From Cylindrobasidium torrendii FP15055 ss-10 (Eukaryota > Basidiomycota > Agaricomycetes > Agaricales > Physalacriaceae): a stretch of 22,036 bases of DNA. The position numbers and the translations under genes were made by a program. Below are positions 1 through 22,036 of this stretch, one piece after another; positions within the stretch are counted from its first letter, which is position 1, and each line of letters begins with the position of its first letter. Below the pieces are notes generated by a model, which saw only the letters and a program-made list of their open reading frames with translations, was not told where the DNA came from and ran no database searches. The DNA lies in the NCBI GenBank assembly GCA_000934385.1, contig KN880772.1:1-22036 (forward strand), given 5' to 3'.

Positions 1-471
1 GTATGTTTCGAGAAATCCAGACGATGAGAGTAAGAGAGCAACGTGACCATTTGATCCGCTAGGCGATCGCTTTCCTTACATGACGGCTTCACCGTTCCCC
101 GTCAACTACAACGTTCACCAAGTTCTCCGTAACCCAGGACAAAGGCGCGCCGAGTACTGTAAAGGGGAGGAAAGCTACGCGTCTGGGGTCGTGCAATGTC
201 TGTCGCCAGCGGAACAGTGCGTTGAATGGTCTAAGCTAGCTACTAGAGGCTGAGAATGAACGGCATTCGTAGTCAAATGTGCGTACAGCTCGCGTTGGTT
301 TGAACTCCGCGTATGAACCACCCATGCTCATGGCGATGCCGACCAGCGGGCTGGAGAGATTTGCTCGAACTACAGGCAACGTCGCGGCTCGCCTGTGTGA
401 TTACCGATGAAACCACCAAGGTGCGTTCACCGTTTGAACTTCCAGGACACGGCTGACTCAGTGTTAAGGTT
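1..471 (+). repeat. Left terminal inverted repeat (471 bp)
   Basis: This block is the exact reverse complement of 21566-22036. I compared all eight 60-base blocks by eye and found no mismatch; identity ends at base 472 (G here, A in the inverted right copy). The tip reads GTATGTTTCGAGAAATCC. It contains the 8-bp palindromes GCGATCGC (63-70) and GGCGCGCC (144-151). The ORFs that run through it differ in the two copies only because the inner flanks differ, and they look non-coding. Long TIRs mark the ends of a DNA transposon and should carry the transposase binding sites. Confidence 0.97.
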
Positions 472-901
472 GTTGAGCCTGTAGCTTGACGCATAGTGAA
501 TGTTACCCTGCTTGCTTGTCCTTTGTCCATGCCGCCATCACTCCAGCCTGTCGAACCCTTGATAACCCAGCAATCCTCGCCTGAACGATTCGTGGGAATC
601 CTGCTACCCATTCATCACCTTCCACAAGCAGCAACAATGACACGTTGAAGGTGGATATTCTGCTGCATTGCACGAGTCCCAGGTGCAGATAAACGCCTAC
701 CTGAGGACAAATCGAGCTCCAGGAGAAGTCGGCCGACCCAGCGCCATCCAAAGCACATTCAATTAAGCCAGATGCCTATAAGCTGTACTCGGCTGGTCCC
801 TCCTCCGCGGTCTCCCGTTCTCAATCCAGGACCTCGATGGCACTGTAAACTCGCCAACCGGCCAACCAGTCGCGCAGATATTCATTTAATGGTGCGCGTC
901 C
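472..901. other. Region inside left TIR, no clear gene
   Basis: No convincing gene was found. On the minus strand, reading onward from the hypothetical fragment at 902-1135, a stretch at about 790-890 encodes NEYLRDWLAGWRVYSAIEVL before a stop. It could be a further exon or relic of that fragment. The rest, next to the TIR, gave nothing recognisable. Confidence 0.4.
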
Positions 902-1135
902 TTACCTCTGTCTCCGCCGAAATTTAACGTCTAGCTTGCAGGTAGTTGGATGTATGCACTTCGCTGGGTGCGTGCTTTCGTCATGATAGCGACGCCAAAG
1001 GGTGCTGACAAGGACCAGCGTTTTCTCCATCATATCGAACTCGCGGATGATATATGCCTTCACCCGCAATGGCGGTATCCCCGGATCGCCTTGTTTGACC
1101 CACGTTAACCAGAAGTGGAAGTCACCCATACGCAC
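902..1135 (-). pseudogene. Unidentified protein fragment
   Basis: A 77-codon open frame includes PGIPPLRVKAYIIREFDMM and EKTLVLVSTLWRRYHDES, which look like real protein (mixed hydrophobic and charged, no low complexity). It ends at a TAA inside AGAGGTAAGG, a plausible splice donor, and the same frame resumes with NEYLRDWLAGWRVY at about 860. I do not recognise the family. It lies head to head with the permease relic and about 430 bp inside the left TIR. It may be a fragment of a host gene or part of a larger broken gene; the start is not established. Confidence 0.35.
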
Positions 1136-1189
1136 TGGTTAGTTTCTCATTTTTTGGGCCCGCAGAACATGTCTGACATGCCTCAAAGT

Positions 1190-1676
1190 ATGGCGCGCGC
1201 GTACACCAGCTTCATCCTCGGGCAGCCTAGTCTCGGGAGCACGGTCGCCTTCTCTGCTGCGACATCGATTGCGCCCATCGGACTGTATATCTCATATGGT
1301 ATGCTTTATGTTTTCACTGCTTCTTCGACAAGGTCTGACAGCGTATAGGCATTCCCGTGGCATCGAGAATATACAACCGTAGCAACTTCGTGCGGGGACC
1401 GTTCTATCTTGGGAGTTCTCGTATGTTATTGGCATACTCACAGTGCTTTAGATCATCTTCATGTCCATTGCCTTCATTCTCCCACAAGTAACGGTACACA
1501 TTTCTCCAGTCGTGACCGCCAGACTGAGAGCTGACTCTTCTATCACCAGCCCGTCGACTCCCAGACGCTTAACTACTTCATTGTAGCCTATTGTGCTCAT
1601 GTACTGCTTCGGCTTCTAGTACCTCAGTGCGCGTAAGTGGTTCACGGGACCTGCGAGGCTGAGAGCAAAGATGTGA
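1190..1676 (+). pseudogene. Amino acid permease relic (C-terminal part only)
   Basis: The plus strand encodes pieces that match the C-terminal end of fungal APC-type (GABA/choline) amino acid permeases: PSLGSTVAFSAATSIAPIGL then YISYG; after an intron (1299-1348), GIPVASRIYNRSNFVRGPF; then FMSIAFILPQV; after an intron (1494-1549), PVDSQTLNYFIVA; then YLSARKWFTGPAR. Only about the last 130 residues of a protein usually near 500 residues are present. A frameshift lies near 1587-1595, and TAG at 1617-1619 stands where the family has Trp (FGF-W-YLS). Sequence between about 1420 and 1450 also appears deleted. The protein would have been a multi-spanning plasma-membrane transporter; this copy cannot work. 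Confidence 0.8.
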
Positions 1677-2030
1677 ACGCGATGGAGGGCGAGACATGGG
1701 GCAGTCCGATAGCATGGAGCGCCTTGTTTGAACTAACGTATGATTTCTGTACACCACATAACATTAGATGCCGCATATATTGTCAGCTCCTATGGGAATA
1801 ATTGCGGATCCCGACCTACAGCCTGCAGCCTGGTGCACCTTGCACAGGTGGGTGCAAAAATTTGCCGCCCAAGATGACTATGAAGTAGCGGCTGTCTTTG
1901 TTCTGCTTTAAATGCCTGACGTGCACATGTACAATACAACAGATGAGTATATAAATACACCTTTTCTTTCCTATACTACCAGCTATCTCGCCCGGACCTT
2001 TGAATCCGGCCGCAGAGATACAATTCAAAG
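1677..2030. other. Intergenic region between two relics
   Basis: It lies between the end of the permease relic (plus) and the end of the regulator relic (minus), so both neighbours converge on it. It includes a TATATAAAT string (1948-1956) with no gene placed to use it, and a short imperfect inverted stretch near 1833-1855. I see no gene. Confidence 0.5.
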
Positions 2031-4231
2031 TCACCATGCCGCGGGCGCCATCGAAAAGTCCGCCGTCCACCCATCCGCGCCATGCAGCTCAATGAGAATG
2101 CCATCCAACCCATTCGTCGGTAGCCCAAGATTCATCATGTTTTGGTGCTGCAGCCACTCTGGCACCGACGCCAGCGGAATCACATCGTGCTTCTCGCGCT
2201 CATCTTCGAAGGCATAGCCCAGCTCTTTCATCGTGTACGCGCCATATTCCGCACCCATGGGATCCACCGTGATACGCTCGATGGACGTCGGACGCGCCGT
2301 GGGCGCAGGTACCCGAATCTCCTTGTGCAACGCAGGTGTCCGCCGTAGGTATGCCGAGAAAATGCGAAATGGAAGGGCATACCGCTCAGCAATATAGCTA
2401 AGCAAGTCCGCACGCCCCGTAACTTTGTCTGTCAGTCCACCTCCGGGAAGAGGTTGACCATCTTGAGAAGATGCACACCAGCAAAGGCAGTGATCATTAG
2501 GGTGTTGTGCACGGCGTAGCGCAATGCAGAGCGACAGTCACCGTTGAAGAAAACCTCAATGTATTCCAGATCGGCGTCCTTGGCTTGGAAGGCCACTTCA
2601 CGTTGTTGAAAGGACATGGTACTACAGTCAACGCCGCTGAGAGCGACGCAGACCAACCTAAGCTTGGTGAAGTGGAGCTCTCCGGCGAGAGAGTTTCGGA
2701 AAAGTGAATGTTGGTCGCGGATGAGATGATCGAATGCATCGAAGTCTTGGAACCGCTCGTCTAGTCCAGGCCTTCTGTCGCCTCTCGAATAAACGCTAGC
2801 GTGCTGTCGTTGATTCGACCTCTCAGTGGCTTGAGTGTCTCGTAGATATCAGCTGTGAAATGTTAAACCTGATGCCCATTTCCTACCAGAGAGCTTACCT
2901 TTCTGCGATATCAACTCGACCTAGGCGACGAGCCGCAAGTCGGTCGGGAATACCATCGAGTGGATGAGTAGAATCTGGGCATGTTGGACCAGGCTCTCGT
3001 CTCGCAGCACCGCCGGTCTCCACGAGCGCAGATTTATCAGATAGCTGAACCAATATACGCAGAGCCATATGCGCGCGGACGCGACAAGATCCCGCTCCTC
3101 CCCCTTTGACCGGGCCACCGTATTCTTTGCTAGTTTGTCGAGAGCATGGTGTAGTCCGAGGTCCAGTGCCATGTGAGCAGCGCGACCGCTTGGTAGCCAA
3201 GCCTGCGTGCTCTAGGCAGCGAAGAGAAGCATACCTGCTGATGGTGAGCCTAGATATTGTAATGGAGAAGGATGGGGTACCTTGAACGGCCTCCTTCCGG
3301 ACGATAGGGCCGAACAAGGACAAGCGAGCAATGCCTTAAGCCCCCGTTAGGCAAGTGTAGAATGTCTCCGTCGTCGGCCCACTCCCACTACGAATCTTGC
3401 TTGCAATAGCACGAATGGTATCGAACGTCCAGGGTGAGCGTTTGGACAGGCTTTCGTAGGTGTCGTAGGCATCAAACATGGGAATAAACAAGTGGCATCC
3501 GGCAAAAAACCTGGCGCGTATCAGAATGGAACCAATGCCTCCGAGTGTACGCACAAGTTGAAGAGCTCCCTGGCCTCGGATTCGGAAACGAGGTCCTCTT
3601 CGACAACGTGGGGGAAGGCGGGTTCAGGCAGAGGCTCTCTCGTGATTGGAGGCGGGCTAAGAGTCGAGATGGTATTGAGTCACAAATGTAGGGCACCTGC
3701 CAGATTCCTCTGCTCGCGAGACGGCGTTGGCAAGATCTCGGCCGCGACAGGCGCGTTCAGCGAGAAACTGGGTAGCGGGATGGTGGAGCCGTCTTGCGAT
3801 GTGATCTCATTTGGTATAAGGCCGTAGTGGCCGTATTTGCCGGGCTACAGGTTTGCTGGATTGAGCATGGAATGGGTACGATGGAGTGGGAACGCACTGG
3901 AGGCGCAAAGTCTGGTAGCGAAGAGAAGGTAGTGCTTTGGGAGCTTGAACTTGACCGTTGGCTGGTAGTGGCAGAAGTAGGTCTTGGCGGTGTCGCACGT
4001 CTCTGGAGGATGGCTAAGCTTCGATACAAGGAGGTGACCATCGACGACATGCTGCTTTGCATGGCCTGGAGACAGCTCGTCGCAGATGGAAGGATTTCGG
4101 GGACCATCACATACGACATATTGCTCTTCAAAGCGCGATATACGGCCAGGCCAAGCTGTACTTTCAGCTGAAAAACAGTTGTTGCTCCCTCTGGGTTCTT
4201 TCCCAGACTGGGTTGTTGTTTCAAGTGCCAA
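2031..4231 (-). pseudogene. Decayed Zn(II)2Cys6 regulator, PriB/Leu3-like
   Basis: Read on the minus strand, pieces follow the fungal-specific transcription factor domain in order: EEDLVSESEARELFNLCVHS (about 3620-3560), RSPWTFDTIRAIASKI, SLFGPIVRKEAVQ, intron 3280-3235, GMLLFAA, MALDLGLHHALDKL, ARIWLCVYWF, VLRDES, TDLRLV, intron 2898-2853, IYETLKPLRGRINDSTL, REVAFQAKDAD, LRYAVHNTL and a closing MAPAAW before TGA at 2031. Breaks: TAG at 3212-3214 where Trp is expected, TAG at 2921-2923, and 1-nt frameshifts near 2760 and 2434. TAA at 3336-3338 is either another stop or part of a 57-nt intron. The Zn cluster should lie at about 4000-4231 but only a doubtful CDGPRNPSIC trace remains, so the 5' limit is approximate. 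Family role: nuclear regulator of metabolic genes; this copy is dead. Confidence 0.82.
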
Positions 4232-5051
4232 ACTGGAAAGTTTTCTGGAATCCCAAAGTCAGGGGCGTTTCCGGCTGGCCCTGCTGCTTTTTGGGCTTTC
4301 CAGCCGGTGCTTAGTCACTCCGGACGTCCTTTGTTTTTTTTACGGGTCCCTAATCGAGCAGATTGCATTAAAATACATATTAATATCCCATGTGGCGCAT
4401 TTTCCTCATTCCTGGCGCGTTCGGGATGCGCGCGCGCCCATTGCGCTAGATATCGTTAAATGAACAATGAGGAAGATATTCGCAACACGAACGCACCTCA
4501 AATCCTGAATTTCTGGATGCATTTCCGCCACCCTCCCGCTCCCTCCCAGCTGGTTTCTCCTCCCCAGCATTTAAAACACCAAAGTGATAGGATAAAACTC
4601 ACGTATTCGAAAGCGAAAGGCGTCCGTAAATCCCGCCCTTCCCGCTCCTACCGCGCCTCCCGCGCCTCCCGCCCGAGCGCTCTGCAGTGTACACCTCCCA
4701 CCACGAAAGTGTGTCTGCGATATCCTTCTCGTTTGTTTGCGGGACCAACACAAGAAACGAAGCCAAAATACATTTTTCCCTATTTTACTGGCCCACACGC
4801 GACACACTTTGTCTTGTTCGTTAGCGCGCCGCCGTTACCGCCATTTCCGAGTAACGTCGTTCGACTCCGGGCGCCAAAATGCCGCCACGCTGCACGAAAC
4901 GACCGTCGCTCGGTACTTCTCAATTTCTCGATCCCCCAACAGACAAATACGGTCGGTAAATGAGTCGTAATCATTTTTGTGGGTGCAAGATGTATGTACA
5001 AGTCAAGTCGTGCTAGCGACGCTACAAGAAAAAACTACAGATATTGAGCTA
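4232..5051. other. Gene-free spacer between left relics and core
   Basis: I see no convincing gene. The 5' half is mixed; about 4526-4680 is a strand-biased C/T-rich tract (CCCTCCCGCTCCCTCC, CGCGCCTCCCGCGCCTCCCG), a pattern common in fungal promoters. The 167-codon open frame 4460-4963 is low complexity and does not look like protein. An ATG at 4879 in good context (CAAAATGCC) opens 26 codons before a GTAAATGAG donor-like site; with no matching downstream exon it is unsupported. This spacer separates the decayed left zone from the intact core. Confidence 0.45.
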
Positions 5052-6141
5052 CTAGGCACCAAACATGTCGCAGTCGTTGTAAGGGAAATCTTCGTCATCC
5101 ATATCCCAGCGAGGCAGCAGCGTACGTATCCCGCGGCGAATAGGGCTGACCTGCGCGTCGCGCAGAGGCACATCCTGAGTGTTGGTATCGACACTAAACA
5201 GCCGGCGGAAAGGTTTGCCGTTGCAAGGACGAGTGGGGGTATCGGGGATGTCCGAAAGCTCGGCGGGCGATGCTGGAATTGGCGACTTGGGGAGAAGCGG
5301 TCCTGGAGTGACCGACTCCTTCTTGATGCTTCGGGGCGCACGCGTCTTGTTGCGGGGATAGGGCGTAGCTCTGCTGCCGCGACGACCAGGAGGGACGACG
5401 AGCAAGACGGGGGAGCGTGGCTCGAGCTTGATGGGAGAGCACGACTCCTGCTTGATGGGAGTGCGCGGCTCGAGCTTTATGGGAGAGCACGACTCCTTCT
5501 TGATGGGAGTGCGCGACTCCTGCCTGCTAGGAGAACGCGATTCTTGCTTGATGGGGGGCGGCGCGGCGCCTGGGATGGCGACGACGATACGGTGTTGGGG
5601 ATTCACAATAGGGACAGGTCTGGGGCGGTCACGTCCGGCGGCGGCGGCGGCGGCGGCATTCCAGTGGCGGAACGCATCGACCTTGGACCTTGGGACGTAG
5701 AAACCACGGTCATCCCTCAGATGAAGGAGTCGCTTCATTCCCCACGTAATGAAGGGCCAGACATCTTTCTGTATCGACGTTAGATAGACGAAAAACAGAA
5801 GAAACGCATAGAAACGCACCTTGAACCGCTTTTTGGACAACGCGCGGCGCTCCTCGACTGACGACGCCTCCTCGACAGGGCACCTGATGTCCCAAGCTTC
5901 CCGACAATCTTGTTTGGCACGCTTGTATGCCTTTTTGTTGGCGTGCCCCTCCAACGCAAGGAAAACCTTCGCCCAGTGAAGGGAATACTCGACGATGGCA
6001 TTTCCGGTGGCATGCTGGCATGTACTTGTTAATGCAATGAGCAACGAAGATTCGGAAACTCACCACCATCGGCTTCTTCGGCGGCGCAAGCAGCATCTGC
6101 TTCGACGGGGTCTTGTCACGAGCTATCTTGAGCCTGACCAT
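5052..6141 (-). CDS. Unknown protein with tandem SUMO/phospho-type motifs
   Basis: Three exons, 6141-6064, 6014-5820 and 5768-5052, join in frame over introns of 49 and 51 nt into 329 aa. The first ~120 residues look globular and basic (HWAKVFLALEGHANKKAYKR; KDVWPFITWGMKRLLHL), and a GFYVPRSKVDAFRHW segment follows. Then come seven alanines and six tandem 8-residue units (5552-5409), five of the form I-K-x-E-x-x-S/T-P, with a further copy IKKESVTP at 5327-5304. The C-terminus is acidic and ends DMFGA. The I-K-x-E-x-x-S/T-P pattern is the consensus for phosphorylation-dependent sumoylation, which would suit a nuclear chromatin or transcription factor; no family is recognised. The start is uncertain: a likely upstream exon lies at about 6360-6281. 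It is divergent from the 6744 gene. Confidence 0.78.
5409..5552 (-). repeat. Six tandem 24-bp coding repeats
   Basis: Units are 5409-5432, 5433-5456, 5457-5480, 5481-5504, 5505-5528 and 5529-5552, with an isolated seventh copy at 5304-5327. On the minus strand they encode, in protein order, IKQESRSP, SRQESRTP, IKKESCSP, IKLEPRTP, IKQESCSP and IKLEPRSP. The units differ at the DNA level but keep Lys, Glu and Ser/Thr-Pro, which points to selection on the motif rather than a very recent duplication. The second unit has lost the Lys (SRQE). Confidence 0.93.
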
Positions 6142-6280
6142 ATCGTAGGGGAATTTTGGCGTGATGGGAAAACGAAAAAGAGGGCTGGTGTCCCCCAGGC
6201 AAGCGCTTGGACGTTCGTACTTACCAATCCTTAGGTGCGGTTCGAACGGGACGGAATATAAATGGAAGCACTCACGCTAC

Positions 6281-6360
6281 CATACTCGGTACACGTTCGG
6301 CATTTGAATGGCCCAAAAGTCGTAGCGGATGCCGTGCCTTTGCACGTATTCCTTCGACTC
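6281..6360 (-). other. Possible upstream exon of the 5052-6141 gene
   Basis: The minus strand reads EYVQRHGIRY then DFWAIQMPNVYRVW, which looks like conserved protein, and stops at GTATGGTAGCGTGAGTG, which holds two donor-like sites (GTAGCG, GTGAGT). Splicing from TATG to the G at 6135 would keep the frame into RVWLKIARDK and would replace the assumed ATG at 6141, but that intron would be about 150 nt, longer than the others here. A micro-exon is also possible. The join is unresolved. Confidence 0.35.
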
Positions 6361-6743
6361 AGAACACAGATGAGTATTTCATTCTCATTCCTAGCGTTGA
6401 AGCCATTTCCATGTGAAGGACGGCGCGCGTTGAATTCAGTACAAAGATGTTGTTGAGCACGACGCTCGGCGCAGCGAAAGGTTTCCGTCCGCCCTAAAGC
6501 CACAAGCACGTACCATCCGCGAGTTTGTGAGCAGCGTAGAATACAAAATGGCCGGCGCATCGTCTGCAAGTCGTGCAGACCGAATTCACCAATAGTTGGC
6601 TTGATCCAGCGTCGCGCAGTGTGCAATGTTTGTGCAAAAGAACAAGTCACTTGCAGCATGGCTGCCGGATTTGATTGCCGGATGATCACGCTCTTATAAC
6701 GCGTGCACTTGATCTCGACGTTTGACTTCCTCCCATCACCACC
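6361..6743. other. Divergent promoter interval
   Basis: It lies between the divergent genes at 5052-6141 (minus) and 6744-8126 (plus), so it should hold both promoters and perhaps more 5' exons of the minus-strand gene. Short minus-strand stretches (for example around 6600-6530) could be coding, but no consistent splice model was found. CTCTTATAACG at about 6690-6700 is a weak TATA-like string upstream of 6744. No other element is seen. Confidence 0.4.
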
Positions 6744-8126
6744 ATGGTCTTGCAACCGCCTCTCGCCGGTTTCGCCGCCTATCTTGGCACGACCACGGCA
6801 ACAACGTCTGTCGTTCAAAGCAACGGCATGGCAGGGGACAAGGCCTTGTTAGTCTACAGAAGTCCGCGCCTAGCCATACTAACCCCGCTCAGTTCCCCCC
6901 TTATTACGACCAGCCGCCTCCGACAGGCATTTCCTGTCGCACTGTACTTCAAGACGTTCGCCGAGGCCAGCACAATTTGCGGTGTCTGGGTCGATTTCTT
7001 GGAAGAAGCCCAGCCATTCCCGCAGCTGACGGTCCATGGAGCCACGACTGTCGTTGAGATCGCTGGGTCGCCGCAGAAATCGCCACTCCTCGTCAAGCTT
7101 GAGGAGTTGGGGTACGACCGCAAGTTTGATCAAGTCCTACAGAACTGCAAACCCATCTTCGCCCTACCTTACTCTCAATATCCCGGCCTCTATATTGACG
7201 AGTACGTTACACTCTCGTAGGCGTTACTGATACTCACAAGTGTTTACAGAGACGCTGCCCGACTCTCTGTCCAGGGCTGTGCCGCACGATTTCGCCGGTA
7301 CAACATCGTCACAAACTCGTTCGCCACTGCGTTCGAAGCGATTCTCCGCAACTCGTATGACGCCCACCGCACAAGGGACTGGCATCAGCAGATCGTCCAC
7401 TACAATTTCTGCTTGCCGGATGACGTCCTCGGAGGCAAACTCATCCCACTTCCTCCCACCCAGGCCCCCCTACCCCTACCAGGCCCGCTTGTGGACATAT
7501 CGCATGGCTGGGAAGAGCCGTACATTTCTTCCTCGCCCTTTGTCACCCCCGTTGCCACTCCCTCCCGCAGGACGGCGCACGAAATTGTCTCACCGCGTAC
7601 CCCAGGTCGTACGCCCGCGGTATCATCGCAAGGGCTGGCGTCTCGTCTGTTCGATGCCTCTAATCCCGCTCAGACAGCGCACCGCGTATCCCCTCAACCT
7701 TCCGATTCTCGCAGTACCTCGTCGACGCCCACGCGGACCACAAGCACATTCGTAGGCGCCGCCCACCGCCCCAGCACGCCGCTTGCTCGTGTCTCCCAGG
7801 CCCAGACACCATCTTCGTCGCCTTCCCGATCTCATGTCACGCAGCATCCCAAGCTCACTTCACTCCCCGAGCCTCTACGCCGTCTAATCGTCGCCTTCTT
7901 CCCAGACGACATACGCAATGCGACCCTCATTTTTGCGGAGGCACAGAGCTACGAGAACGCCAATTCCGCCTGCAGCCACGTTCTCACCGAACTTCCCGCC
8001 TGGATGTCAGTCAAGCAGTTCATGTTTGGCCTGTCGTACATTTTCGACAGTGGCAATCCCATCGACGAAGCTCAGGTCCATACGGCCGGCAACCGCAGTA
8101 GCCAGGATGAGTCGAGGGATGAGTAG
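6744..8126 (+). CDS. Unknown Ser/Thr/Pro-rich protein
   Basis: ATG 6744 is in strong context (CATCACCACCATGG). Exon 1 (6744-7201) and exon 2 (7250-8126) join in frame over a 48-nt GT-AG intron (7202-7249) into 444 aa. The N-terminal ~230 residues look folded (VALYFKTFAEASTICGVWVD; FCLPDDVLGGKLIPLP). Residues about 230-350 are Ser/Thr/Pro-rich with many S/T-P pairs and probably disordered. The last ~90 residues look folded again (LRRLIVAFFPDDIRNATLIF; SVKQFMFGLSYIFDSG). There is no signal peptide or membrane segment. I do not recognise the family. It converges on the AT-hook gene at 8535-9198. A second small intron around 6845-6890 cannot be excluded. It sits in the intact core and shows no breaks, so a role in the element is possible but unproved. 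Confidence 0.75.
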
Positions 8127-8534
8127 AGTGGACTGTGGACAGTATACTGTGTCTGAACGTCTTCGTTATCTTGAGCCGCTATAGTATTGTTTTGTTGTAT
8201 CTACATCGACGCTACTGTACGTGTTATCTGTGTACGTATATCCGTCAATATATCTTGTTCGCCCCGTCAACCACCCAAAAAGTTGCAGCACCTCTGTGCC
8301 GTGTACTCTACTTTTCGATCCCCAGACGTCTTTTCGGCCTTAATAACATGAAGTGCAACCGAGATCCATCTCAGATTCATATGACGCGTGTTCCGTACGT
8401 TTGGGTCCAGGCCAGATCCTCTTCGATCTGAGAAAGTCCTAAGGGGACCCCCTTTACACTGAAGCTAGAAATCTTGGAAAGTACGAAAATTCATGACGAC
8501 AAGAGTTTATGGGTATTACAGACCTACGAAAGTA
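8127..8534. other. Convergent 3' intergenic region
   Basis: It lies between the stops of the plus gene ending at 8126 and the minus gene ending at 8535, so it holds both 3' ends. It is T-rich in its first part. No gene, hairpin terminator or repeat was recognised. Confidence 0.5.
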
Positions 8535-9198
8535 CTACACTGTCGTTACTAACGGTAGAATCTCCTTCAGGGTGCCGGCGTCCCAGGCATCCAGGATGGT
8601 ATGTAAGTTATCAGCCCAGGCATGTACGCGCTCTGCCATCTGTGCCGCCTCTCGTACCCAGACGTCCTCCTTTGAGAAAAATATTCCAAATGTATCGTGG
8701 GTGATGTCCATAGCATGGAAGTATGGCTGGAGGCAGCGCAGCACACTCTGCAGAAATGATATGTGATCTTGAAGAACGGTGCCGCGACTACGAAGTAGAA
8801 CATCCGCTGTGTCTGCAAACCATCGAGACGGTGCGTCGTCGAATGCGTGATCAATGTGCAAGTACAGGTTTTTGAGTTGGCGGAAGAGTGTCCCTAGACG
8901 TGTGTCCGTAGGTAATGGGTAGTCAAAGCAAGTATCCTCGAACATCTTGTTGACCGTGCAGTCCACTCCCGACCACGATAGTGTGCGTGTCAACCTTCAA
9001 AGCCAATGTAAGTATATGGAAACATGCGTATACATTCACGCACCAATGAGCGTTCTCCGTAGAGCGCGCTCTCCTTCTCTCAGATCGCGCTGCCATATGT
9101 TCTGCTTCCCATGCTGCCTTTCGGAGGCGCGTAACCTCTCTGCCTTCCTTGACCGTAACATGTTTCCTTGGCCTCCCGACCTTCCGCGTGAATACCAT
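8535..9198 (-). CDS. Small AT-hook protein, family unknown
   Basis: Exon 1 (9198-9044) and exon 2 (8994-8535) join in frame over a 49-nt GT-AG intron into 204 aa. The N-terminus, MVFTRKVGRPRKHVTVKEG, carries the GRP core flanked by basic residues that defines an AT-hook, a minor-groove DNA-binding motif. A basic helical stretch follows (RLRKAAWEAEHMAARSERRR). From about residue 55 on the protein looks all-helical (LGTLFRQLKNLYLHIDHAF; ISFLQSVLRCLQPYFHAMDI; MAERVHAWADNLHTILDAWD) and would suit a dimerisation or partner-binding domain. No enzyme motif is seen. It is divergent from the HMG-box-like gene and convergent with the 6744 gene. It may help the transposase or pack the element's DNA; this is inference. 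The start is supported by a G at -3 and by the motif beginning straight after it. Confidence 0.72.
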
Positions 9199-9905
9199 CG
9201 ACGCCAGATGTTTGTGAAGTTCTTGGTGTATGGTGATGAGCGCTTAAGGGAGAGCCAGGGACCACAGATCGGTGGTCTTGATCGCATGCTAGGACCTTGA
9301 CGAGGCTACCCAGAACGGCGTAGAGCGATGTGGAAGCTCAGAACACCACCCAACGAGTCGCGAGGATGTCCTCTTTTAGATTCCACATAGTTTTGGTGCT
9401 GACATAAATGACAAGCTTTCGCAGCATATCCAGACCAAGCGCCCCATGTAATGGGTCAGTCCATGTCCGACGAAAAGTTGCACATATGAGAATCCGATTC
9501 ATCTATACGGTAAGTGTATGTAAAGTAGCGCTAGATATATAGGAAGCCTTGTATGTGCTCAAATAGCGAATCCAGGCAATGGCACAAGCTGTAGAATATT
9601 GCCAACATTTTTGGGCAATTATTCTTAATTAGCACCTGCTTGCCGGCCGGTAGGCAGCCGATTGATCCAGACGCGTTGGCTGAGCCTCCCTCTTTTGTTC
9701 ACCCACGCCCACTAGTTCTGCGGACGTCTGAACCATCTAACAGTAATACCTATGTCAGCAGCGTGAGTTCGCGCGGAATCAATTCTACTGTGCGGATGTT
9801 CACCTATCATTTCAGGGAAATCGTAAATCCGTCTATCGGGCCGCCAGAGTCTAGGCGCGTCCTTTTCATCTCCTTCCCTTACCCACTCATATCTCTTGCT
9901 TAGTG
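9199..9905. other. Divergent interval; possible first exons of the 9906 gene
   Basis: It separates the AT-hook gene (minus) from the HMG-box-like gene (plus) and should hold both promoters. Nothing recognisable was found in 9300-9630. From about 9640 the plus strand is open (PDALAEPPSFVHPRPLVL) up to a strong donor, GTGAGTTCG at about 9766, with acceptors at about 9816 (TTTCAG) and 9903 (GCTTAG). These may be 5' exons of the next gene, but no combination gave a clean frame into 9906. Confidence 0.4.
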
Positions 9906-12616: not shown

Positions 12617-12891
12617 TGTGTTTATGTATATGTACTATTCCTTCGTCGGACAATGGTTTGCTTTCTTGAGGTTGCGTATTACTTGTTTTGTTGCACAGTC
12701 CGTTCTGTAGTGTTGTTTTTCTTGTAGTGCATAGTAGCAATGATATTGTTGTGACCATCGCATATAGTGCGCCATCCCATTGACTCGATGTAATGTACCT
12801 TGTTATCGTACTGAATAAGGGACGTGCACAGGATCCTCAAAACCTTGAAGGTGTTTGTGCGGTAGATTATTCTTTCCTTTCCCCCATCACG
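12617..12891. promoter_or_regulatory. Intergenic region, promoter of the 12892 gene
   Basis: This 275-bp T/G-rich gap follows the stop of the HMG-box-like gene and precedes ATG 12892 on the same strand. It must hold the 3' end of the first gene and the promoter of the second. A pyrimidine run (TTCTTTCCTTTCCCCC, 12870-12885) just upstream of the ATG is typical of fungal transcript starts. Confidence 0.4.
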
Positions 12892-13563
12892 ATGTCAGTC
12901 GAAATTTCGTCGCTGCGTTCATCCTCTCATGTCTATCTACACCCTGTCGACGGTCTGTTCACAATGCCAGCGAGTTTTTCGGACGACAATCAACGGTATG
13001 TCCTTTGCTGATATTGTGGTGGATAACTGACAGATCCATAGTAGCAACAACAGCAACCTCGCGCGCGCCTCCGAGGACACTATAGTGGCGGAGTGTGTGG
13101 ACTCGCAGGCCCCAGAGGATAAAGGCGCTGCGTCACCTACGACCCCTCCATTGCCGACGAAGACAAACGTCCTATACGAGTCGGCCCCAGCGCTACCAGT
13201 TCCTTGTCAGGCTCTATCACCCAGTGTCGACGCCTTGAGAGCATGGCAAGAAACCAACAGACGTCTTCAACGGCAAGCGGACGCCTTCCAGCAAAAGGAG
13301 CGACGCCGCTATGGTACGTCGCCGTGCACCTGACCGTTGACTCCCACGGCTGACGTCTCCCTATAGGGTTGGACTTAGATAAACATGAATATTCGCGCTG
13401 GTCGCCAGACACCATCACCGACAATGATGTGTATGTGCCTATATTCTTCCTGAATCCCTTCCTGCCTGTCTGACGCGCCTACAGACCTTTTTGCTTGGCA
13501 GGTGTAATTCGTGTATTCACCTTGGGATTTCATCGCATACGTGACGCGCTGGCTTCGCGTTAG
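12892..13563 (+). CDS. Small orphan protein, coiled-coil segment
   Basis: Four exons, 12892-12995, 13042-13313, 13367-13430 and 13485-13563, join in frame over GT-AG introns of 46, 53 and 54 nt into 172 aa with a TAG at 13561-13563. The start has a pyrimidine tract and ACGATG. The middle is Pro/Thr/Ser/Ala-rich (SPTTPPLPTK). A charged helical stretch, LRAWQETNRRLQRQADAFQQ, followed by KERRR, is a likely short coiled coil and basic patch. The last exon is hydrophobic and basic (FCLAGVIRVFTLGFHRIRDA). No family is recognised. It lies between the HMG-box-like gene and the transposase on the same strand, which suggests a shared role, but the open four-exon structure is the only evidence that it is real. 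Confidence 0.62.
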
Positions 13564-13826
13564 TTTCTATCATATGTAGAGTACACTTGTATTGTCTTTG
13601 TATTATCTTGCAGCGTCGGCCGTGCCGCATATCTTTGATATCTTGAAATGTATTGTCTGCCCGCTTCATCACATAATGTGCTCGTACCTTCACTGGGAGC
13701 TTACAGTCGACAACGTCCTTCTCCGCAATTTCTCTGCAGACTTATGAAGACTACTGGTGTCCATGTGTGTGATCGGAATTGTAGGCCGGAGTCACATGGC
13801 TCCTTTTTCTCGTTGACACACTCATT
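13564..13826. promoter_or_regulatory. Transposase promoter region
   Basis: This 263-bp gap lies upstream of the transposase ATG. No clear TATA box is seen. A pyrimidine-rich run (TCCTTTTTCTCG, about 13801-13812) sits just upstream of the start. The 3' end of the 12892 gene also falls here. Confidence 0.4.
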
Positions 13827-16800
13827 ATGTCTGCCGCTCGCCGTCCTCTTCTTCCTGGCAAGCGGGCCGTCGCTTTACGCGTCTCACGTACCAATGACCA
13901 TATCACCGACGAGACCCAGCTTCATGCGCGCTCATTTACACTGTCCAGCGACCGCAAACGCTTAAAAATCAGCACGAGTGGATCGTGCGCGCTCGCAGGA
14001 AACAGGCGGAACACAGATTGGCAAAGTACATTCGATGAGGACATTGCAGAGGCTTATGTTGAGCCGGCATCACGCCGACGATATGTGAATTCGGTGCGTG
14101 ATTGTAGTCTCATGCTTTATCAGGGCATTTACATCTGGACAGGACAACAACAATCGTACTTGGGTAGAAGACGGTCGCCCGCAGGAATACCTGTACGAGT
14201 TTATGCGCCTGAAGGGCAGGCGGGGTCTTCCAGAAACCTGTCGTTTCTGTTCTTCTGGGGACGACGCAGGGTATAGATGTATGGACTGTTTCCACGCTGG
14301 ACTAAAATGCCGTTCGTGCTTCCTTCACACACACGAAAGACTCCCCTTTCATCGCTTTGAGGTGGGTGGCTTGCACCCCGTCTTGTCTCTTGCAACTGAC
14401 GGCTTTGTAGATATGGAATGGCGACTGCTTTGAGCGGGGGCACGGCCCCACAATTGGCTTGAGTGTGGCTGTTGGCCACGACGACGGTTCACGCTGTTCC
14501 ATTGGGAAGGTAGCCAGGAAGTTCACCATCCTTGACACTGGCGGAATTTTTATGTACGACATCATCTTCTGCAACTGCGAGAAGGGCGCGCCGAAGAGAC
14601 TGCAGCTCCTACGAGCCGGGCTTTTCCCGGCAACTGCGCGCAATCCACGAACCGCGGCGACTTTCCGCCTCATCGATGAGCACGAGCACCTAGCGGCCCA
14701 TGGCAAAATCTCCCCGTACGAGCACTACAGCGCACTAGAACGTATGTGCGACGCTTGGCGCGTATCAATTCCAAAGGTTCGCATCTATTGCTTCCTCTAT
14801 TCCTCCAACTGACGGTTAACTAGTCGCGACTGAAGTCGTGGACGCGTATCATCCGGCAAAGTGGATTTGTCACTATGTTGAGTAGAGGTGGGCGTGGGTG
14901 CTTTCAAGACGGTGTTGCGACCACAAAGGGTGGACAGTTGGCCATTGCGTGCCCGGCTTGTCCGCGGGAGGGAGTCAACATACCAGACAGTTGGCAGACT
15001 CTCCCGCCCGAAAAACGGTATGTCCTCACGGCCACGATGTTTGCTTATGCTAATGGACTACAGCTGGCGCTACAGATTAATGCTAATGCTTGACGCCAAC
15101 TTCCGCCTGAGCAATTTGCGGCGGAATTCGACAGAGGACAAGGGTCTGCATACTGGCCTAGCATACTTTGTAGAAGACGGCCCATATTTGAATCACATTG
15201 CAAAATACCCAAAGCAAGAAGATGTACGTCTGCGACTTCAGATAGAATCGAACACTGACTGATTTTCCCATAGCTTAGCAGCTGTAGTGGGTTCAAAGCC
15301 ATGTCCACGGCTGAGACGAAGGACGCGACTGGGTTACGGGCCACCGGGGTGGCGATGTGTGCATGCATTCAGCATGAAATGATACGGCCGAGAGGGGTCG
15401 TTGATTTGCAGCGCGGGGAAAGGTACGTTAGATGGGTGTCTGTGTAGCGCATCTCATCGTCAAAACAGACAATGCAATATGGACTATGCGGCACTATCAG
15501 CAGCGCAAGACAGCAAACTGGATCGCCTGTACAGCTACGATATCGCTTGTCAATGGTTCCTCAACCTCTACAAGCGTATCGTCGAGATGCCCGAGCACCT
15601 TCGCCCGGGAGCAGGGTGTAATCTAGCATACGCCGTACCGAAATGCCACTGCAAAGGACATAAGATCGACTGTCAATGCTTTCATTCACTGCTCGTGCAA
15701 CTTGGCGTCGGTACTGAGGACGCCGAGGGTATCGAACGTATCTGGTCGCTGATCAATCACTCGGCTGGAGCGACGCGCGAACAACTGTATGGCCATCGCC
15801 ACGACACGCTGGACCGTCGTATGGCAACCCATAACTGGGAGAAGACGACCGGACTAGGTGAGCATACCAATGTATGCGGTCGCGATTTACTCATTTCTCG
15901 TCAAGGTAAATACTTGCATGGCCGCCTCGAAACTGAGGAGGAGAAGCTGGTGCAGCTTGAGGCTGTACATAGTGAATTTACCGCCCTCCTCGAACCGTCG
16001 AACAAGATACCAACATGGGAGGCGGAGGTTAAGGCGTGGGAACTCGAAAAGCTCTTGAATGGTGGACGTCTGAAAGACGGGAGCCAGAGGAGCCCGTACT
16101 GGCGGGAGCGTCGGTGTGAGTATATTTCGGCAATAACGTCCATCTTTAACTAAATACATTGTAGATCTCAAGCACAGCGAACTGATGCTCAAACTGGCCG
16201 AGCAGGAACGGACGTCAGGAGCTCCTCCGATACACGATACAAGCGCAACCGCATGTGTGGACATGGGAATAAGAATTGAGCAGAAACAGTACGTCCGGTG
16301 TTTGTAAGTATTAACCAATTAACTGATTCATGTACAGACGCGATATTGTCCAACTGCTGACATCAACCAACAAGGATGCCCCACACATCATCAAGGACAT
16401 ACAGGCCAAGCGGATGACCCTTCAACGGGACCTACTTCAGTTTCGAGAAGTCCAACGAGTGTACATGCCATGTATCGCGGCTGTGCTGTCTGTCAGTGCC
16501 GGCGAGCGCGCGGGTGACATTGAGACCGAAACCGTCTACTTACCTTCGTCTCTGTCGTCGTCAAAGCGAGCCAACGGGTGTGCAGACGGACTGGTAGAGA
16601 AGGAGGATGCCATGCGCGAAGCGCAGTGCTTTGCGGCGTTGGAAGAGATCCGGTCAATCCAGCGTGGGGCGCGACAGCTGGCGACGTTCAGAAAGGCAAA
16701 CATTCGTGGGACATTAGCGTCCGGCCGGTCATTCGATGCTCAAAAACGGATGGCCGCATTGACGAAGAAGGCGGTAGAAACGTATCGTGCAGGACGACAG

Positions 16801-17511
16801 GCCCTGCTGCGCATCCGAGGTCATGGCTCGTGGGAGACAGTACTGCAAGTTCTGGACGAAAAGCGGGACGTCAAGTCCATTGCCAGCGACATCTTCGCCA
16901 CGGACTTGTCTGCAGATCTCGTTTCTAACACAGACGAGCTTGCGACGTCTGCGCATACCGATATGAAGCGCAAACGCGGGAAACACGGGCTCAAGACGGC
17001 GGACACCGTTTTCTCGACATCTGACTTCTTCATGTCGTGGATTTGGAGGGTTTCTGGCGCGTTCAATGAGACAGACGACGACGAGATGGACGGGGTGCTG
17101 CGCATCGAGTGGCTGAAGAGTCGCGCACGGCTGGAGCGATCAAGGGAGCAGGTGCAGCTGTTGAAAGACAGCAGAGAGCGCACACTACTTTCGCTCGAAT
17201 ACGAGGCCAACGAGTGGCTGGGACGTGCGTCAGGTTGGGCCAGCGCCTCCCCGGATCTTGCAGAAGGGATTTCAGCGTATTGTCACGCCCAAGCTCTCGG
17301 TAGACGTCGACTGGCCGCAACGTTCACCGCCCTGTGGGCAACGAAGGCATTCCATGGTCATCCACGTGTTGCTGACCGAATTGACCTCGAGGAGGACATG
17401 GTATCGGATTCCGAAGATGAGGACGATTACGGTTTGGAAGACACTGTACGTACTTTGGCTGATTTGCCACCACCCAGACCGGGTATGCGAGACCAACCGC
17501 CGACAATGTAG
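13827..17511 (+). CDS. KDZ transposase with CxC2 cysteine cluster
   Basis: Ten exons join in frame into 1083 aa: 13827-14093, 14143-14361, 14411-14776, 14824-15017, 15064-15223, 15274-15422, 15469-15857, 15906-16115, 16165-16288, 16338-17511; introns are 46-50 nt, all GT-AG. Domains: a basic N-terminus; a CxC2 cluster with four CxxC pairs at residues 122/125, 135/138, 145/148 and His 151-159 (CRFC, CMDC, CRSCFLHTH) followed by the family's FE-IWNG; the KDZ core with LMLDANFRL (Asp359), YSYDIACQW (Asp476) and GIERIWSLIN (Glu541), the likely catalytic Asp-Asp-Glu; and a helical C-terminal third with the usual EWLKSRARLERSREQVQLL segment and an acidic tail. It should cut and join DNA at the TIRs in the nucleus. 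No stop or frameshift was found, so the element may be autonomous. The catalytic triad is my inference from family motifs. Confidence 0.93.
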
Positions 17512-18098
17512 ATTACTCTGTAGCATATTCTTACTGTATCCTAACTTTTTGCCGTTGTCTTCGCCACCGCCACGTACATAAAACCGAATACGGTAAGGTG
17601 ATCGGGATTTTACGCTGCCGAGCGCAAATTTTTCGGCATCATGTGGATTGGCGTCGCGCCGGGCCATATTTGATTCTGGCCTGAATATTAATCAGCAATG
17701 ATGATGTAGGTCCCGAATTTGGTTGCCTTGCCCGGGCCATGTGCTCTGGATTGAGGCCAGCTGGTACAAATAAGGCAGGTGTGCTGCTGCTGCACTAACA
17801 ACAGAATCCTGGTATTTTGGACTTGCTGTAATAACGATATCAGGTAAATTGACCTCTTGTGACAACAACACAATTTGGGAATGGCCTGCAGCCAGGGTTG
17901 ATACGGCTGCAGTATCAGTTAGCGTAAAGTGGCAGATATAGCCGGTCGCGTACTCCAGGCTGATTAGTGCAGCAGCAAGATTCCCGCTCCCTATCTTCGT
18001 GAATACATATTTGATGTTGTTGCAGTCGCAGTGTCTACATTTCTGGTGGTTGTTGATTAGAAGCCAGTCCAGAGGTAGCCGCGAGAATTCCCAGTCAC
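17512..18098. other. Region after transposase; unexplained minus-strand ORF
   Basis: The first ~180 bp hold the transposase 3' end and nothing else recognisable. A 160-codon minus-strand open frame (18174-17692) covers the rest; parts read like protein (YATGYICHFTLTDTAAVSTL, LPDIVITASPKYQDSVVS). It overlaps the Zn-cluster relic in another frame, so it may be the frameshifted continuation of that relic. I do not recognise it and its start is doubtful. Confidence 0.3.
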
Positions 18099-18223
18099 CT
18101 CGCCATTGCACTTGTTCTTGCTTCGCTTGCAAGGCGTACAGGCGGCGTTGATGGGGGCGGCATTTCCGCATCACTTCCTCGTCGGCGCTTCCGGGATCCA
18201 GAATTCTTGGGTGCGGGTAACAT
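18099..18223 (-). pseudogene. Zn(II)2Cys6 cluster relic
   Basis: On the minus strand from ATG 18223, MLPAPKNSGSRKRRRGSDAE looks like the basic N-terminus of a Zn(II)2Cys6 regulator. About 80 bases on, in another frame, lies ACTPCKRSKNKCNGE (18143-18099), which has the C-x2-C-x6-C half of a Zn(II)2Cys6 cluster. The expected second half (C-x2-C-x6-C) is not seen, and joining the two parts needs a frameshift of one base or a missed intron. It is probably the head of a broken regulator, and is not in a position to be the missing head of either of the other two relics. Confidence 0.5.
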
Positions 18224-18910
18224 GGGGTAAGAAGACAAGCCTGTAAGCGTCACAATACAGTAACGCCGATAAAAGTGCGGGGTCATCGCTGCATGACCCC
18301 GGATGCTATAGACTTTACTGATTTTAACTTTCATTGTCCTACAAGATATGCGGCGCGCAAACTTACGGCAGCCAAAGTCACTGGGTCGTGAATTTATGCA
18401 TGAAGTGCCCTGGTAATTGCTGGTCGTCGTCCATATCGACAGGGAGTCTAAAGAGAACAGACGCATCGATAGCGACAAGCCGCGCGAGGAACCTGGGAAA
18501 ATCAGCGCAGAGAACGACGCACTACGCAAGAAATCAGCAACGTATTTGGCTTTGGTGGCTATGGTGGCTAGAGGTGCGATTGATTTTGTATCCCTGTGTT
18601 TTCAGTGCTGATAAACACGGAAGGTATGCGCGCATATCTCGCGAGAATATCATATGCTGACCTGGAAGTCACAGCGGCGAGATATACTTCAACACCCACT
18701 ACTGTCGAAGGCGAAGCGAATGATGCCCCGCTTGCTCATCCTTCGCCAATGCCGGTCCATGCCTAGCTTCAATAGCCCAGCAATCCGCGGAACCCTCTTC
18801 TGCCCATTTTCCACCCTATAAAAACAGCTCAAACAACGCGATGAATAAGTTAGCGCTTGTTCATCGCTTGTTCGACTGCATTGAACGAGTTCCCAGGTGC
18901 AGTTATACAC
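18224..18910. other. Gene-free region with promoter of the 18911 gene
   Basis: No gene was recognised in 18224-18800; a 64-codon plus-strand frame (18417-18611) is probably chance. The distal part holds the TATA box at 18817 and the leader of the 18911 gene. Confidence 0.45.
18817..18824 (+). promoter_or_regulatory. TATA box
   Basis: TATAAAAA lies 87 nt upstream of ATG 18911, a usual spacing for a fungal core promoter. It is the best TATA match that precedes a start codon in the window. Confidence 0.5.
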
Positions 18911-20520
18911 ATGCCTGAAGCCACAACCACGGAGAGGCCGACTGACCCAGTGCCGAAGGAGGAGATAAAGCAAGAGATAAAGCAAGAGGGTCAGATGTCT
19001 GCATTTGGGGCTCTTGCAACGCCAAAAGAGGAAGATGCAGTTACCCCGAAGCATGAAGACGGCGTACTGGGAACAGGTACATTAAATCTTCTTGCCAAAA
19101 CGAACTCGACTAACCTATACTATCTTTCTTGGTTAGCTCTTCATTCCGCGCCATCTATCTCTCCCTGAAGCTCTGCCTCTTCATCTTTCGTACTACAGAT
19201 AAAGACGCAGGAGGCCATTCCCTTCAAACCCATGTCTCCCGACTCGTCTCCCGGGACGGCAAGTCCTCAGCTCATGCTGCCGGCGCCAGAGAAGTTTGAC
19301 ATGACAAACACGCTGGACCAAATACGAAGAGGATTCCCCGCGAGTCAGTATGATGGAGGGAGAAGGCAAAAAAACTGGACGAAGCGCCGGTAGTTTCGAC
19401 CTCGTCTCCTGTCGCAGACATGGTCAATCAGGTACTAGGTGTGTTCGCTGGGAGCGTTGTATGGGGCGCAATTGCTCATGTTCGCTCATAGGACTAGGTA
19501 TGGAACGTCGACCACGCGCAATTGGTACGGCATCCATTCTGGTCGCTGCGTCTGTGCATGTATCCCCTACACCGCGTTTTGGGTCCCAGGAAGCATACTG
19601 TATTTTTGGACGCGTTGGATGGGCAAGACCAAAACGAGCGGCATACATGTTGCCTCATCTTCCGCCCGTTCATATTCCCAGCCCTTATGGAAATGGCCCG
19701 CTCCTCGGATTGGCGACTCGAATCAACACTACATTGAAACCTTCCTCGAGTTGCTAGGCTGGGTTGAGCAGCAAGAGAACTGTGGAAGAGCCGGTGAGCT
19801 GTTCACCTGAACCACTGCCCCGTTCTGTAGCATCTGGCAGCGGTGCGACGTCGCGTCGTCCGAATAGAAAACCATCTGCGCAACCAAAGGCGAAGAAATT
19901 TAAACCGACACCCAAGGGACCGCCTTGGAAGAAGACGCAGTGGAAGAAAGCAAGGACCAAGCGAAAGGCAAAGTCATCGAACGCCAACAAAGCCCCGATA
20001 CAAGAATGTACATTGACAAGTGTCTTTTGCCTGTGCGCACGTTTTAACGTTTTCTTTCTCTTTCTGGGTCCTGACGCCCCAGTTGACAGTGATGCCCATG
20101 AATTACAGTGCTCGCTCTTTATGCCTTCTGTGTGTTCCTCTGGACCGACCACACCCCCCAAAAGGGCAGATGCACCAAAATCTTCCCCGTTCAGATCACC
20201 GAACACGTCGTCGAACGTCTGGGCGTCGATATCGACGCCATACACAGTGGACTGGAGTGATGCTTCTTAGAGGGTCTCAATACTGGCTTGCAAGAGGGCA
20301 AGAAGACATAGTAGCCGTCTTTTCTGCCTCTGGATACGAAAGGAGAACGCTGCAGCGGTGATGAACTGGATGAGGGAGGGCCCAGGTTCCGTCTTGCGTT
20401 CAGACTCTTACTCACGATTATGCACCCCGACTACCTAGCGCGTATGTTACAGCACCAGTACTTTCACGATCGCATTGACATAAACCCTCGCCACGCGAAT
20501 ATAGGCTTACACTTAGGTCG
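18911..20520 (+). pseudogene. Unknown nuclear-type protein, disrupted
   Basis: From ATG 18911 the plus strand encodes an acidic/basic N-terminus with two IKQE motifs in a row (EEIKQEIKQEGQ), then TPKEED and TPKHED. A coding-like stretch follows at 19200 (MSPDSSPGTASPQLMLPAPE, FDMTNTLDQIRRGF), a 1-nt break in a 7-A run near 19369, SSPVADMVNQ, a 66-nt intron (19432-19497), then a conserved-looking block (WNVDHAQLVRHPFWSLRLC, RPFIFPALMEMARSSDWRLE) that ends in a stop at 19732. A basic segment (KKFKPTPKGPPWKKTQWKK) lies in a third frame at 19890-19960. At 20310-20315 TAG-TAG interrupts a frame leading to FRLAFRLLLTIMHPDYLARM and a TAG at 20520. No family is recognised. Probably a dead gene; complex splicing could rescue parts of it. 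Confidence 0.5.
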
Positions 20521-21545
20521 TTAGGTCTCTAGAAGCTCTGCTTGTACAATGACCCTGCGTTGGATTTGGTTCAAACACCTGTGTGGCCGAAGAAAGATAC
20601 ATTGGCCTCTTGCTCTACTCTTAACCATTCGCTGTGCTGCGTCAGGGTGAAGGTGCAACATACCGTCGACACAGCGCCATGGAACGAGCTTTCCTTTCCC
20701 TACATTCTGTATCTCTCGATTAGCTCTTCTCTTTGTTCCCTCTGTAAGTTCCTTGTCAGTCACCGAATTGCGTAACTATTAGCGTAGTACGAACTCACCA
20801 CCGCACTGATGCTGAAGGATGTGGAACGTGGTTTCCCATCCAGACGGCTTAAGTTCTCTAGTAGTACACGGGGGTCGTCTGAGTGGTGAAGCGATTGCGC
20901 AAACCAAGAGAACCACAGATGCGAACCCGCGGCCATGAAGCGGAGGCCTTGAGCAACCGAGCTCTTGAAGGACGGTGGGTGCAAGAGGGGGATGGAGAGG
21001 TTCTGACAGACGAAGTAGAGGTTGACGAGCGATGTCAGGAGTTCAGGCTTGGGGAATTGATAACGACATGCAACCGTTTCCTGAGGCTGAGCCTCCCATT
21101 ACATTCCATTAGCATTAGGCGCGCCATGAACAAGGTCTGATAGCACTCACCGGCGGCATAGTCCAAATCACTTTCCTCTCTTCTCTCTCGTTGCGACAAT
21201 TTGGCTCCGAGAGCTGGTTTACTGGGATCTCCCTGTCCTCGATAAGACGAGCTCGTATGGCGTGCGCTTGGCGTATGAAGGACGGGCTTCGCGTCGTCTG
21301 CAATTCCGCGGGTGCTGGAAAATCTGTTGGCGGGCAGAGTGACATTTCTGCGTATATTCCATGCTGAGGGTTGACGAGTGTTGTATTCGGACTCGATGAA
21401 GTATCTATCTGCGAGATATTTGTCTGCGGCTGGAAATCTTCTGAAGAGGGACAGCCAATCTGCAGTTGCACAAGGGTCTCCATTGCAGCCAAGCCCTACT
21501 CCAAAGACTCGACATAGCCCGGTGAGACTTGTGTTGGATAGTATA
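20521..21545 (-). pseudogene. Truncated Zn(II)2Cys6 regulator ending at the TIR
   Basis: On the minus strand the relic begins with GYVESLE (about 21522), then TAG at 21496-21498, then GLAAMETLVQ: this is the 'GYVESLENRLEKME' linker/coiled coil that follows the Zn cluster in many fungal regulators. Next come EREERKVIWTMPP, an intron-like gap (from about 21153), FPKPELLTSLVNLYF, NLSIPLLHPPSFKSSVAQGL, a segment where two shifts move between VLLVCAIAS and the original frame, and HSDDPRVLLENLS, all matching the start of the fungal-specific transcription factor domain. Downstream of about 20800 the match fades and no C-terminal half was found. The Zn-cluster exon, which should lie upstream, is replaced by TIR sequence from 21566. 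Dead copy. Confidence 0.75.
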
Positions 21546-21565
21546 AGCGCAGCTTGTGGCTCGGT

Positions 21566-22036
21566 AACCTTAACACTGAGTCAGCCGTGTCCTGGAAGTT
21601 CAAACGGTGAACGCACCTTGGTGGTTTCATCGGTAATCACACAGGCGAGCCGCGACGTTGCCTGTAGTTCGAGCAAATCTCTCCAGCCCGCTGGTCGGCA
21701 TCGCCATGAGCATGGGTGGTTCATACGCGGAGTTCAAACCAACGCGAGCTGTACGCACATTTGACTACGAATGCCGTTCATTCTCAGCCTCTAGTAGCTA
21801 GCTTAGACCATTCAACGCACTGTTCCGCTGGCGACAGACATTGCACGACCCCAGACGCGTAGCTTTCCTCCCCTTTACAGTACTCGGCGCGCCTTTGTCC
21901 TGGGTTACGGAGAACTTGGTGAACGTTGTAGTTGACGGGGAACGGTGAAGCCGTCATGTAAGGAAAGCGATCGCCTAGCGGATCAAATGGTCACGTTGCT
22001 CTCTTACTCTCATCGTCTGGATTTCTCGAAACATAC
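21566..22036 (-). repeat. Right terminal inverted repeat (471 bp)
   Basis: This is the inverted copy of bases 1-471, with no mismatch seen. The window ends exactly at its outer tip (...ACATAC), so the window is the element and nothing else, and any target-site duplication lies outside it. Complete identity over 471 bp means either that the element moved recently or that the two ends are kept alike by gene conversion. A relic Zn(II)2Cys6 regulator lies directly inside its inner edge. Confidence 0.97.

Follow-up and report, generated by a model that had tools for sequence, protein, structure and literature searches.

Among the described systems, the element considered here most resembles the Kyakuja transposons of Agaricomycetes, for which the main text of the description gives 7-bp target duplications, 5'-CA..TG-3' termini, a KDZ transposase and an absence of terminal inverted repeats (TIRs) (Kojima 2025, PMC12730594). 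Zisupton, which belongs to the same KDZ superfamily, has TIRs and 8-bp target duplications (PMC12730594, main text), while the KDZ1-KDZ3 elements of Cryptococcus (approx. 9-11 kb) are reported, in the available part of the source, to contain TIRs of 139-241 bp, to generate target duplications of 8 bp (KDZ1) or 4-8 bp (KDZ2 and KDZ3), and to encode a transposase with a CxC1 domain (PMC12810828). We analysed a 22,036-bp stretch of DNA (referred to as the window), which constitutes the entire contig KN880772.1 (C342) of the Cylindrobasidium torrendii FP15055 ss-10 assembly (29,298,553 bases, 494 contigs). It is almost certain that positions 4147-17900 of this contig are a complete DNA transposon of the Kyakuja lineage, whose insertion into one copy of a host region that is duplicated in the genome produced a 7-bp target duplication, and that the 471-bp inverted repeats at the two contig ends have nothing to do with transposition, being a repeat at which the assembly was interrupted.

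The element (13,754 bp, plus strand, 5'-CAGGCC...GGTTG-3') is flanked by two perfect copies of the sequence ATACGGC (4140-4146 and 17901-17907). Searches with the halves of the window interior revealed that the left flank (782-4146) is collinear with positions 17371-20865 of contig C188, and the right flank (17901-20848), in pieces, with C188:20859-25401. Since C188 joins both sides without 4147-17900, and since these sides overlap by exactly 7 bp (ATACGGC, C188:20859-20865), this contig represents the empty site. No exact inverted match of at least 9 bp was found between 4101-4400 and 17701-17980, which indicates the lack of TIRs; the ends of the element share only loose similarity and TTGTTG repeats.

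Six elements of this kind, 13.5-14.4 kb in length, were found in the genome, and a separate 7-bp duplication flanks each of them. The element of contig C400 (1841-15780) matches 4147-17900 from end to end, in pieces, with 68-77% nucleotide identity, and is flanked by two copies of TATGCAG, with the adjoining eighth base matching as well (unlike in the window). A third element, C435:355-13903, is flanked by GAGCTGG twice and resides in a retroelement frame which we take to be gag-like. For contigs C193, C62 and C433, pieces around the loci were searched for matched 7-mers adjoining CA..TG, which gave three, four and two candidates, respectively. The best of these were C193:28378-42791 (GTGTTTG), C62:40102-54386 (CCACGCC) and C433:13941-280 (CTTCAAG). 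As the matched 7-mer and the CA/TG dinucleotides were conditions of the search, these three elements rest on their end-match scores, i.e. 45, 42 and 45 of 80, compared with maxima of 36, 36 and 30 obtained in 200 shuffles of the right-hand piece. The termini are CAGGCC..GGTTG in the window, C400 and C435, and CAGGCC..TTG in C193, C62 and C433. A 28-base left-end pattern (up to 3 mismatches) matched only the window and C400, and an 18-base right-end pattern (up to 2 mismatches) matched the window, C400, C435 and three other places. One genome therefore offers six complete, target-duplicated Kyakuja-type elements together with an empty-site paralog.

A KDZ family search of the genome produced 36 matches on 21 contigs. 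Sixteen of 20 loci taken from this search matched the KDZ core of the window at E<=1e-5 and four did not (C425 and C439 yielded no locus and were not classed in this comparison). Six loci, including the window, are 63-100% identical in the KDZ core, and the ten others 26-37%; judged by these sequences, the six appear to form one group. The window and C400 elements do not exceed 77% identity over long stretches, C435 is more distant, and all three retain long open frames. Because synonymous change between the window and C400 is near saturation, they are old relatives and not products of a recent burst. Old, low-copy elements maintained by selection raise the question of how such elements persist.

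The presence of a KDZ transposase gene, already noted in the original prediction, was confirmed at 13827-17511 (plus strand). The spliced model encodes approx. 1000 amino acids, with the CxC2 domain at about 14411-14788 and the KDZ catalytic domain at about 15065-15835. It matched PF18758 over 1-217 of 217 positions (E=3.4e-57, versus E=1.7e-30 on one open reading frame (ORF)) and CxC2 at E=2e-28; its small exons in the interval 14057-14411 are uncertain, since the model omitted a conserved stretch there. A protein search with the C-terminal part gave nine relatives, the best named one in C. torrendii (78%). In comparison with C400, three exons of the transposase gave ratios of nonsynonymous to synonymous substitution rates (dN/dS) of 0.075, 0.038 and 0.053. 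The accessory genes described below gave values of 0.17-0.21 (A), 0.10-0.22 (B), 0.17 (C), 0.09-0.27 (D) and 0.15 (E), i.e. the two elements have been under purifying selection.

The gene order in the window, C400 and C435 is A (minus), B (plus), C (minus), D/E (plus) and transposase (plus). In the window, gene A occupies 5052-6069 (minus strand) and contains a 24-bp repeat at 5399-5566. Gene B (6744-8126, plus strand) was modelled with three exons (429 amino acids), and gene C (8535-9198, minus strand) with two (204 amino acids), with a sub-threshold AT-hook match (GRPRK) at its N-terminus. The multi-exon gene D/E (10147-12616, plus strand; model uncertain at 11098-11325) gave a sub-threshold HMG-box match in the exon 10514-10920 (E approx. 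0.07), which was lost on the spliced model; an HMG box in D is a lead only. No Pfam domain above the cut-off was detected in A, B, C or D/E, PDB searches with B, C and the N-terminal 300 residues of D/E yielded no match with an E-value under 0.16, and protein searches with gene E, whole and C-terminal region, gave no relatives at E<=0.001. The predicted structures are weak, with a mean pLDDT (predicted local distance difference test) of 59.5 for gene C, which is all helical, and of 52.3 for the D exon. Genome-wide searches, run for C (main exon) and D (one exon), returned six places for either query (C342, C400, C435, C193, C433 and C62), which are exactly the six Kyakuja-like loci. At all of them the order C, D, KDZ is constant, with C opposite in strand to D and KDZ. 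Genes C and D/E are thus fixed parts of the element lineage, and sequence similarity connects the A genes of five of the six loci.

With a KDZ domain, CA..TG termini and a 7-bp target duplication in six of six cases, and no TIRs in the window element, these elements have the features of Kyakuja. The published Kyakuja families were chosen for the presence of a TET/JBP dioxygenase (PMC12730594, main text), and none was detected in the element described here. The corresponding profile, PF12851, had no matches in the whole genome, in a search that must be regarded as weak, as 14 control genomes also gave none; nor did the PDB searches, which did not include A, match a dioxygenase with B, C or the N-terminal 300 residues of D/E. 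The terms "HMG", "accessory" and "CxC2" do not occur in the main text of PMC12730594, supplements not included. The element is also similar to KDZ1-KDZ3 of Cryptococcus in being a KDZ element whose transposase has a CxC domain, but differs from them, as far as the available part of PMC12810828 describes them, in the lack of TIRs, in its 7-bp target duplication and in CxC2 being the better match. It is an unexceptional representative of an established superfamily, and its set of accessory genes is of interest. Literature searches on KDZ, Kyakuja and SUMO-transposon subjects, from which subscription papers and supplements were out of scope, returned no description of this gene set or of the SUMO motif discussed below.

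The window had originally been interpreted as a complete 22-kb transposon ending in perfect 471-bp TIRs. The inverted ends are indeed exact: the left repeat (1-471, plus strand) is the reverse complement of the right one (21566-22036, minus strand), a match far above chance. Similarity persists for 15 bases beyond the arms (9 of 15 matching) and then ends, and the next-longest inverted pairs in the window, among the 24 others listed of 34 pairs, do not exceed 30 bp, with 70-86% identity. Some KDZ elements also possess TIRs of 139-241 bp according to the available part of PMC12810828, which could speak for a 22-kb transposon with the Kyakuja element nested inside it. This we consider extremely unlikely. 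Both inverted ends are contig ends, and C342 is for this reason uninformative on the sequence outside bases 1 and 22036. Another contig, C415, opens with the same 471 bases, in reverse orientation to window 1-471, and then runs on outward; the sharing between C415 and the window ends branches exactly at base 471. Past the repeat, a genome search with C415 revealed no further near-identical copy (the remaining matches were of 66-81%). Outside the window, the repeat matched only C415 and two relatives, in C422 (80%) and C188 (75%), at one place each. Moreover, C415:5-510 aligned to C188:27741-27230, and C415:3-512 to C422:12942-13448, in direct extension of the alignments of window 20836-22036 to the same two contigs. 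Since window 20836-22036 and C415 up to base 510-512 are together collinear with C422 and C188, the paralogous homology crosses base 22036 and continues into C415:472-512. The arms lie approx. 3.7 kb outside the element on each side, and no second 22-kb unit was found in searches with both halves of the interior. The arms not being transposon ends, the recent movement deduced from their identity loses its basis. The mistaking of exact inverted contig ends for TIRs is a boundary error which is likely to recur.

A different question is whether the repeat is genuinely duplicated in the genome. A real inverted duplication, whose arms might be long (two copies of C415, separated by a 21-kb spacer), or a stretch flipping by recombination between the arms, is compatible with a Kyakuja-type insertion at 4147-17900, and we give it a nearly even chance. 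It fits with the sharing of the repeat by both window ends and C415, which diverge exactly at base 471. For the left copy, the match to C422 extends as far as base 485, and this, together with the trailing similarity past base 471, is what a partly homogenised copy would show and suggests a real second copy of the repeat. Whatever adjoins the left arm on its outer side may nevertheless be lacking from the assembly, in which short contigs are probably absent (the last-numbered contig, C494, has 10,154 bp). This assembly has further contig ends that are shared exactly, but they are a minority: among eight other ends inspected (the far end of C415 and seven that were combined into a single query), two exact, unmerged overlaps with another contig end were found (C192 start/C420 start, 307 bp; C14 end/C494 start, 350 bp), and one of 97% over approx. 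186 bp (C400 end/C427 start). Three consecutive TTAGGG units were found in none of the 56 loci scanned, which provides no support for a telomeric explanation of the ends, without thereby excluding it. It appears improbable that the non-transposase genes are cargo acquired from the host, after the manner of giant cargo transposons. This interpretation agrees with the lack of Pfam domains in these genes, but is contradicted by the confinement of C and the D exon to the six Kyakuja-like loci in constant order and orientation, by the sequence links of A, and by the low dN/dS. The description of the locus as a large cargo-carrying element can thus be retained insofar as it is a large KDZ transposon with several other genes, but not for C and D/E, which belong to the element itself.

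Several observations weigh against a complete Kyakuja-lineage transposon inserted in a duplicated host region and bounded by an assembly repeat. The assignment to Kyakuja is based on the ends, the duplication and the domain and not on a tree with named Kyakuja sequences, and PMC8290104 reports that a TIR motif was characterised among KDZ and Plavaka elements, group unspecified. C188 is a paralog (82%), neither an allele nor a related strain, and the empty site is thus deduced from a duplicated region. Five of the eight contig ends inspected have no counterpart at another contig end, and the contigs alone are compatible with either one or two genomic copies of the repeat. A fourth transposase segment (13791-14273) had a dN/dS of 0.34 and three stops in C400, and the segments of the KDZ core, D (10821-11099) and A (5769-6023) contained one C400 stop each; some segments of this comparison were cut by similarity and not at exon borders, and we read these stops as intron sequence within them. 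The comparison with C435 is near saturation, with ratios of nonsynonymous to synonymous differences (pN/pS) of 0.14-0.71 on nine segments (a tenth, E-Cterm, with 1.56, was cut out of frame and left out).

With regard to the mechanism, we infer that the KDZ/CxC2 transposase might recognise the divergent CA..TG ends and subterminal repeats, and would excise and reinsert the element by cut-and-paste with a 7-bp stagger, while proteins A, B, C and D/E may assist transposition, DNA binding or escape from silencing. Protein A contains an array of PsiKxExx[ST]P motifs: six in the window, three each in C400 and C435, and four in the C62 frame, compared with 0.000-0.004 expected after residue shuffling. 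We assume this to be the phosphorylation-dependent SUMO motif (PsiKxExxSP type). A six-frame scan of the window placed the motif in gene A only, and it was absent from five other stretches scanned (C415, C422 and part of C188). The six motifs of the window are not independent, since the array lies largely in the 24-bp repeat; the C62 units (VKNEPVSP) differ from those of the window. The C62 frame is linked by phmmer to protein A of C435 (E=3.1e-11, the repeats perhaps helping), and the C433 frame (242 amino acids), linked to C62 at E=5e-20, has no motifs. The frame at the gene A position of C193 (309 amino acids) also has none; its reading by eye as a relative of A was not supported by phmmer, which linked it to no other frame, and the A proteins of the window and C400 were not directly linked to the C193, C62 or C433 frames. 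The array is therefore present in four of five linked copies, or at four of six loci.

It is conceivable, although rather unlikely, that five genes make up the transposition system of this lineage. In such a system, the accessory proteins would be fixed partners of the transposase, and protein A would serve as a flexible docking platform whose motifs couple the element to the SUMO and proline-directed kinase signalling of the host, e.g. by timing transposition or countering silencing in place of a TET dioxygenase. The failed phmmer links lower the likelihood of this reading a little. The motif array offers a concrete way to test for a connection between a fungal DNA transposon and the SUMO control of its host.

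The window has some further features. A stretch at 12844-13560 is common to the window and C400 and not aligned in C435; its coding signals are weak, with pN/pS values of 0.25-0.77 in five cuts, one of them on the other strand. Depletion of the type caused by repeat-induced point mutation was not seen, with a CpG observed/expected ratio of 1.08 in the element and 0.99 in its flanks. The left flank contains host gene pieces (2034-3844, minus strand) conserved with C188 (71-97% amino acid identity; pN/pS 0.11-0.71 over four pieces), the coding character of which is not equally clear throughout. They gave no Pfam match and presumably resemble a fungal zinc-cluster regulator. In the right flank, a truncated gene (20853-21517, minus strand) is related to the Fungal_trans gene that C422 contains. 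At 20836-20859 there is a rearrangement breakpoint relative to C188 (25401 and 28578), where both alignments overlap over approx. 24 bp and from which window 20853-22036 is inverted with respect to its C188 neighbours. C188 also contains approx. 860 bp (21452-22312) not found in the window, perhaps a small insertion, the flanking alignments overlapping by 5 bp. The segment 495-772 is 62-69% similar to window 18715-18954 and to C188:22565-22861, which suggests a small dispersed repeat.

Two of the other contigs also contain transposon-related sequences. In C192:1-8685, a diverged KDZ transposase (1451-2264) is enclosed by exact 253-bp inverted repeats (1-253 and 8433-8685), and this may be a KDZ element with TIRs that is truncated at the contig start; the end shared by C192 and C420 itself falls in an inverted repeat. 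C415 has, at 8070-9593 on the minus strand, an ORF of 507 amino acids, which we take to resemble the transposase of another DNA transposon, and this neighbouring contig may thus be transposon-rich as well.

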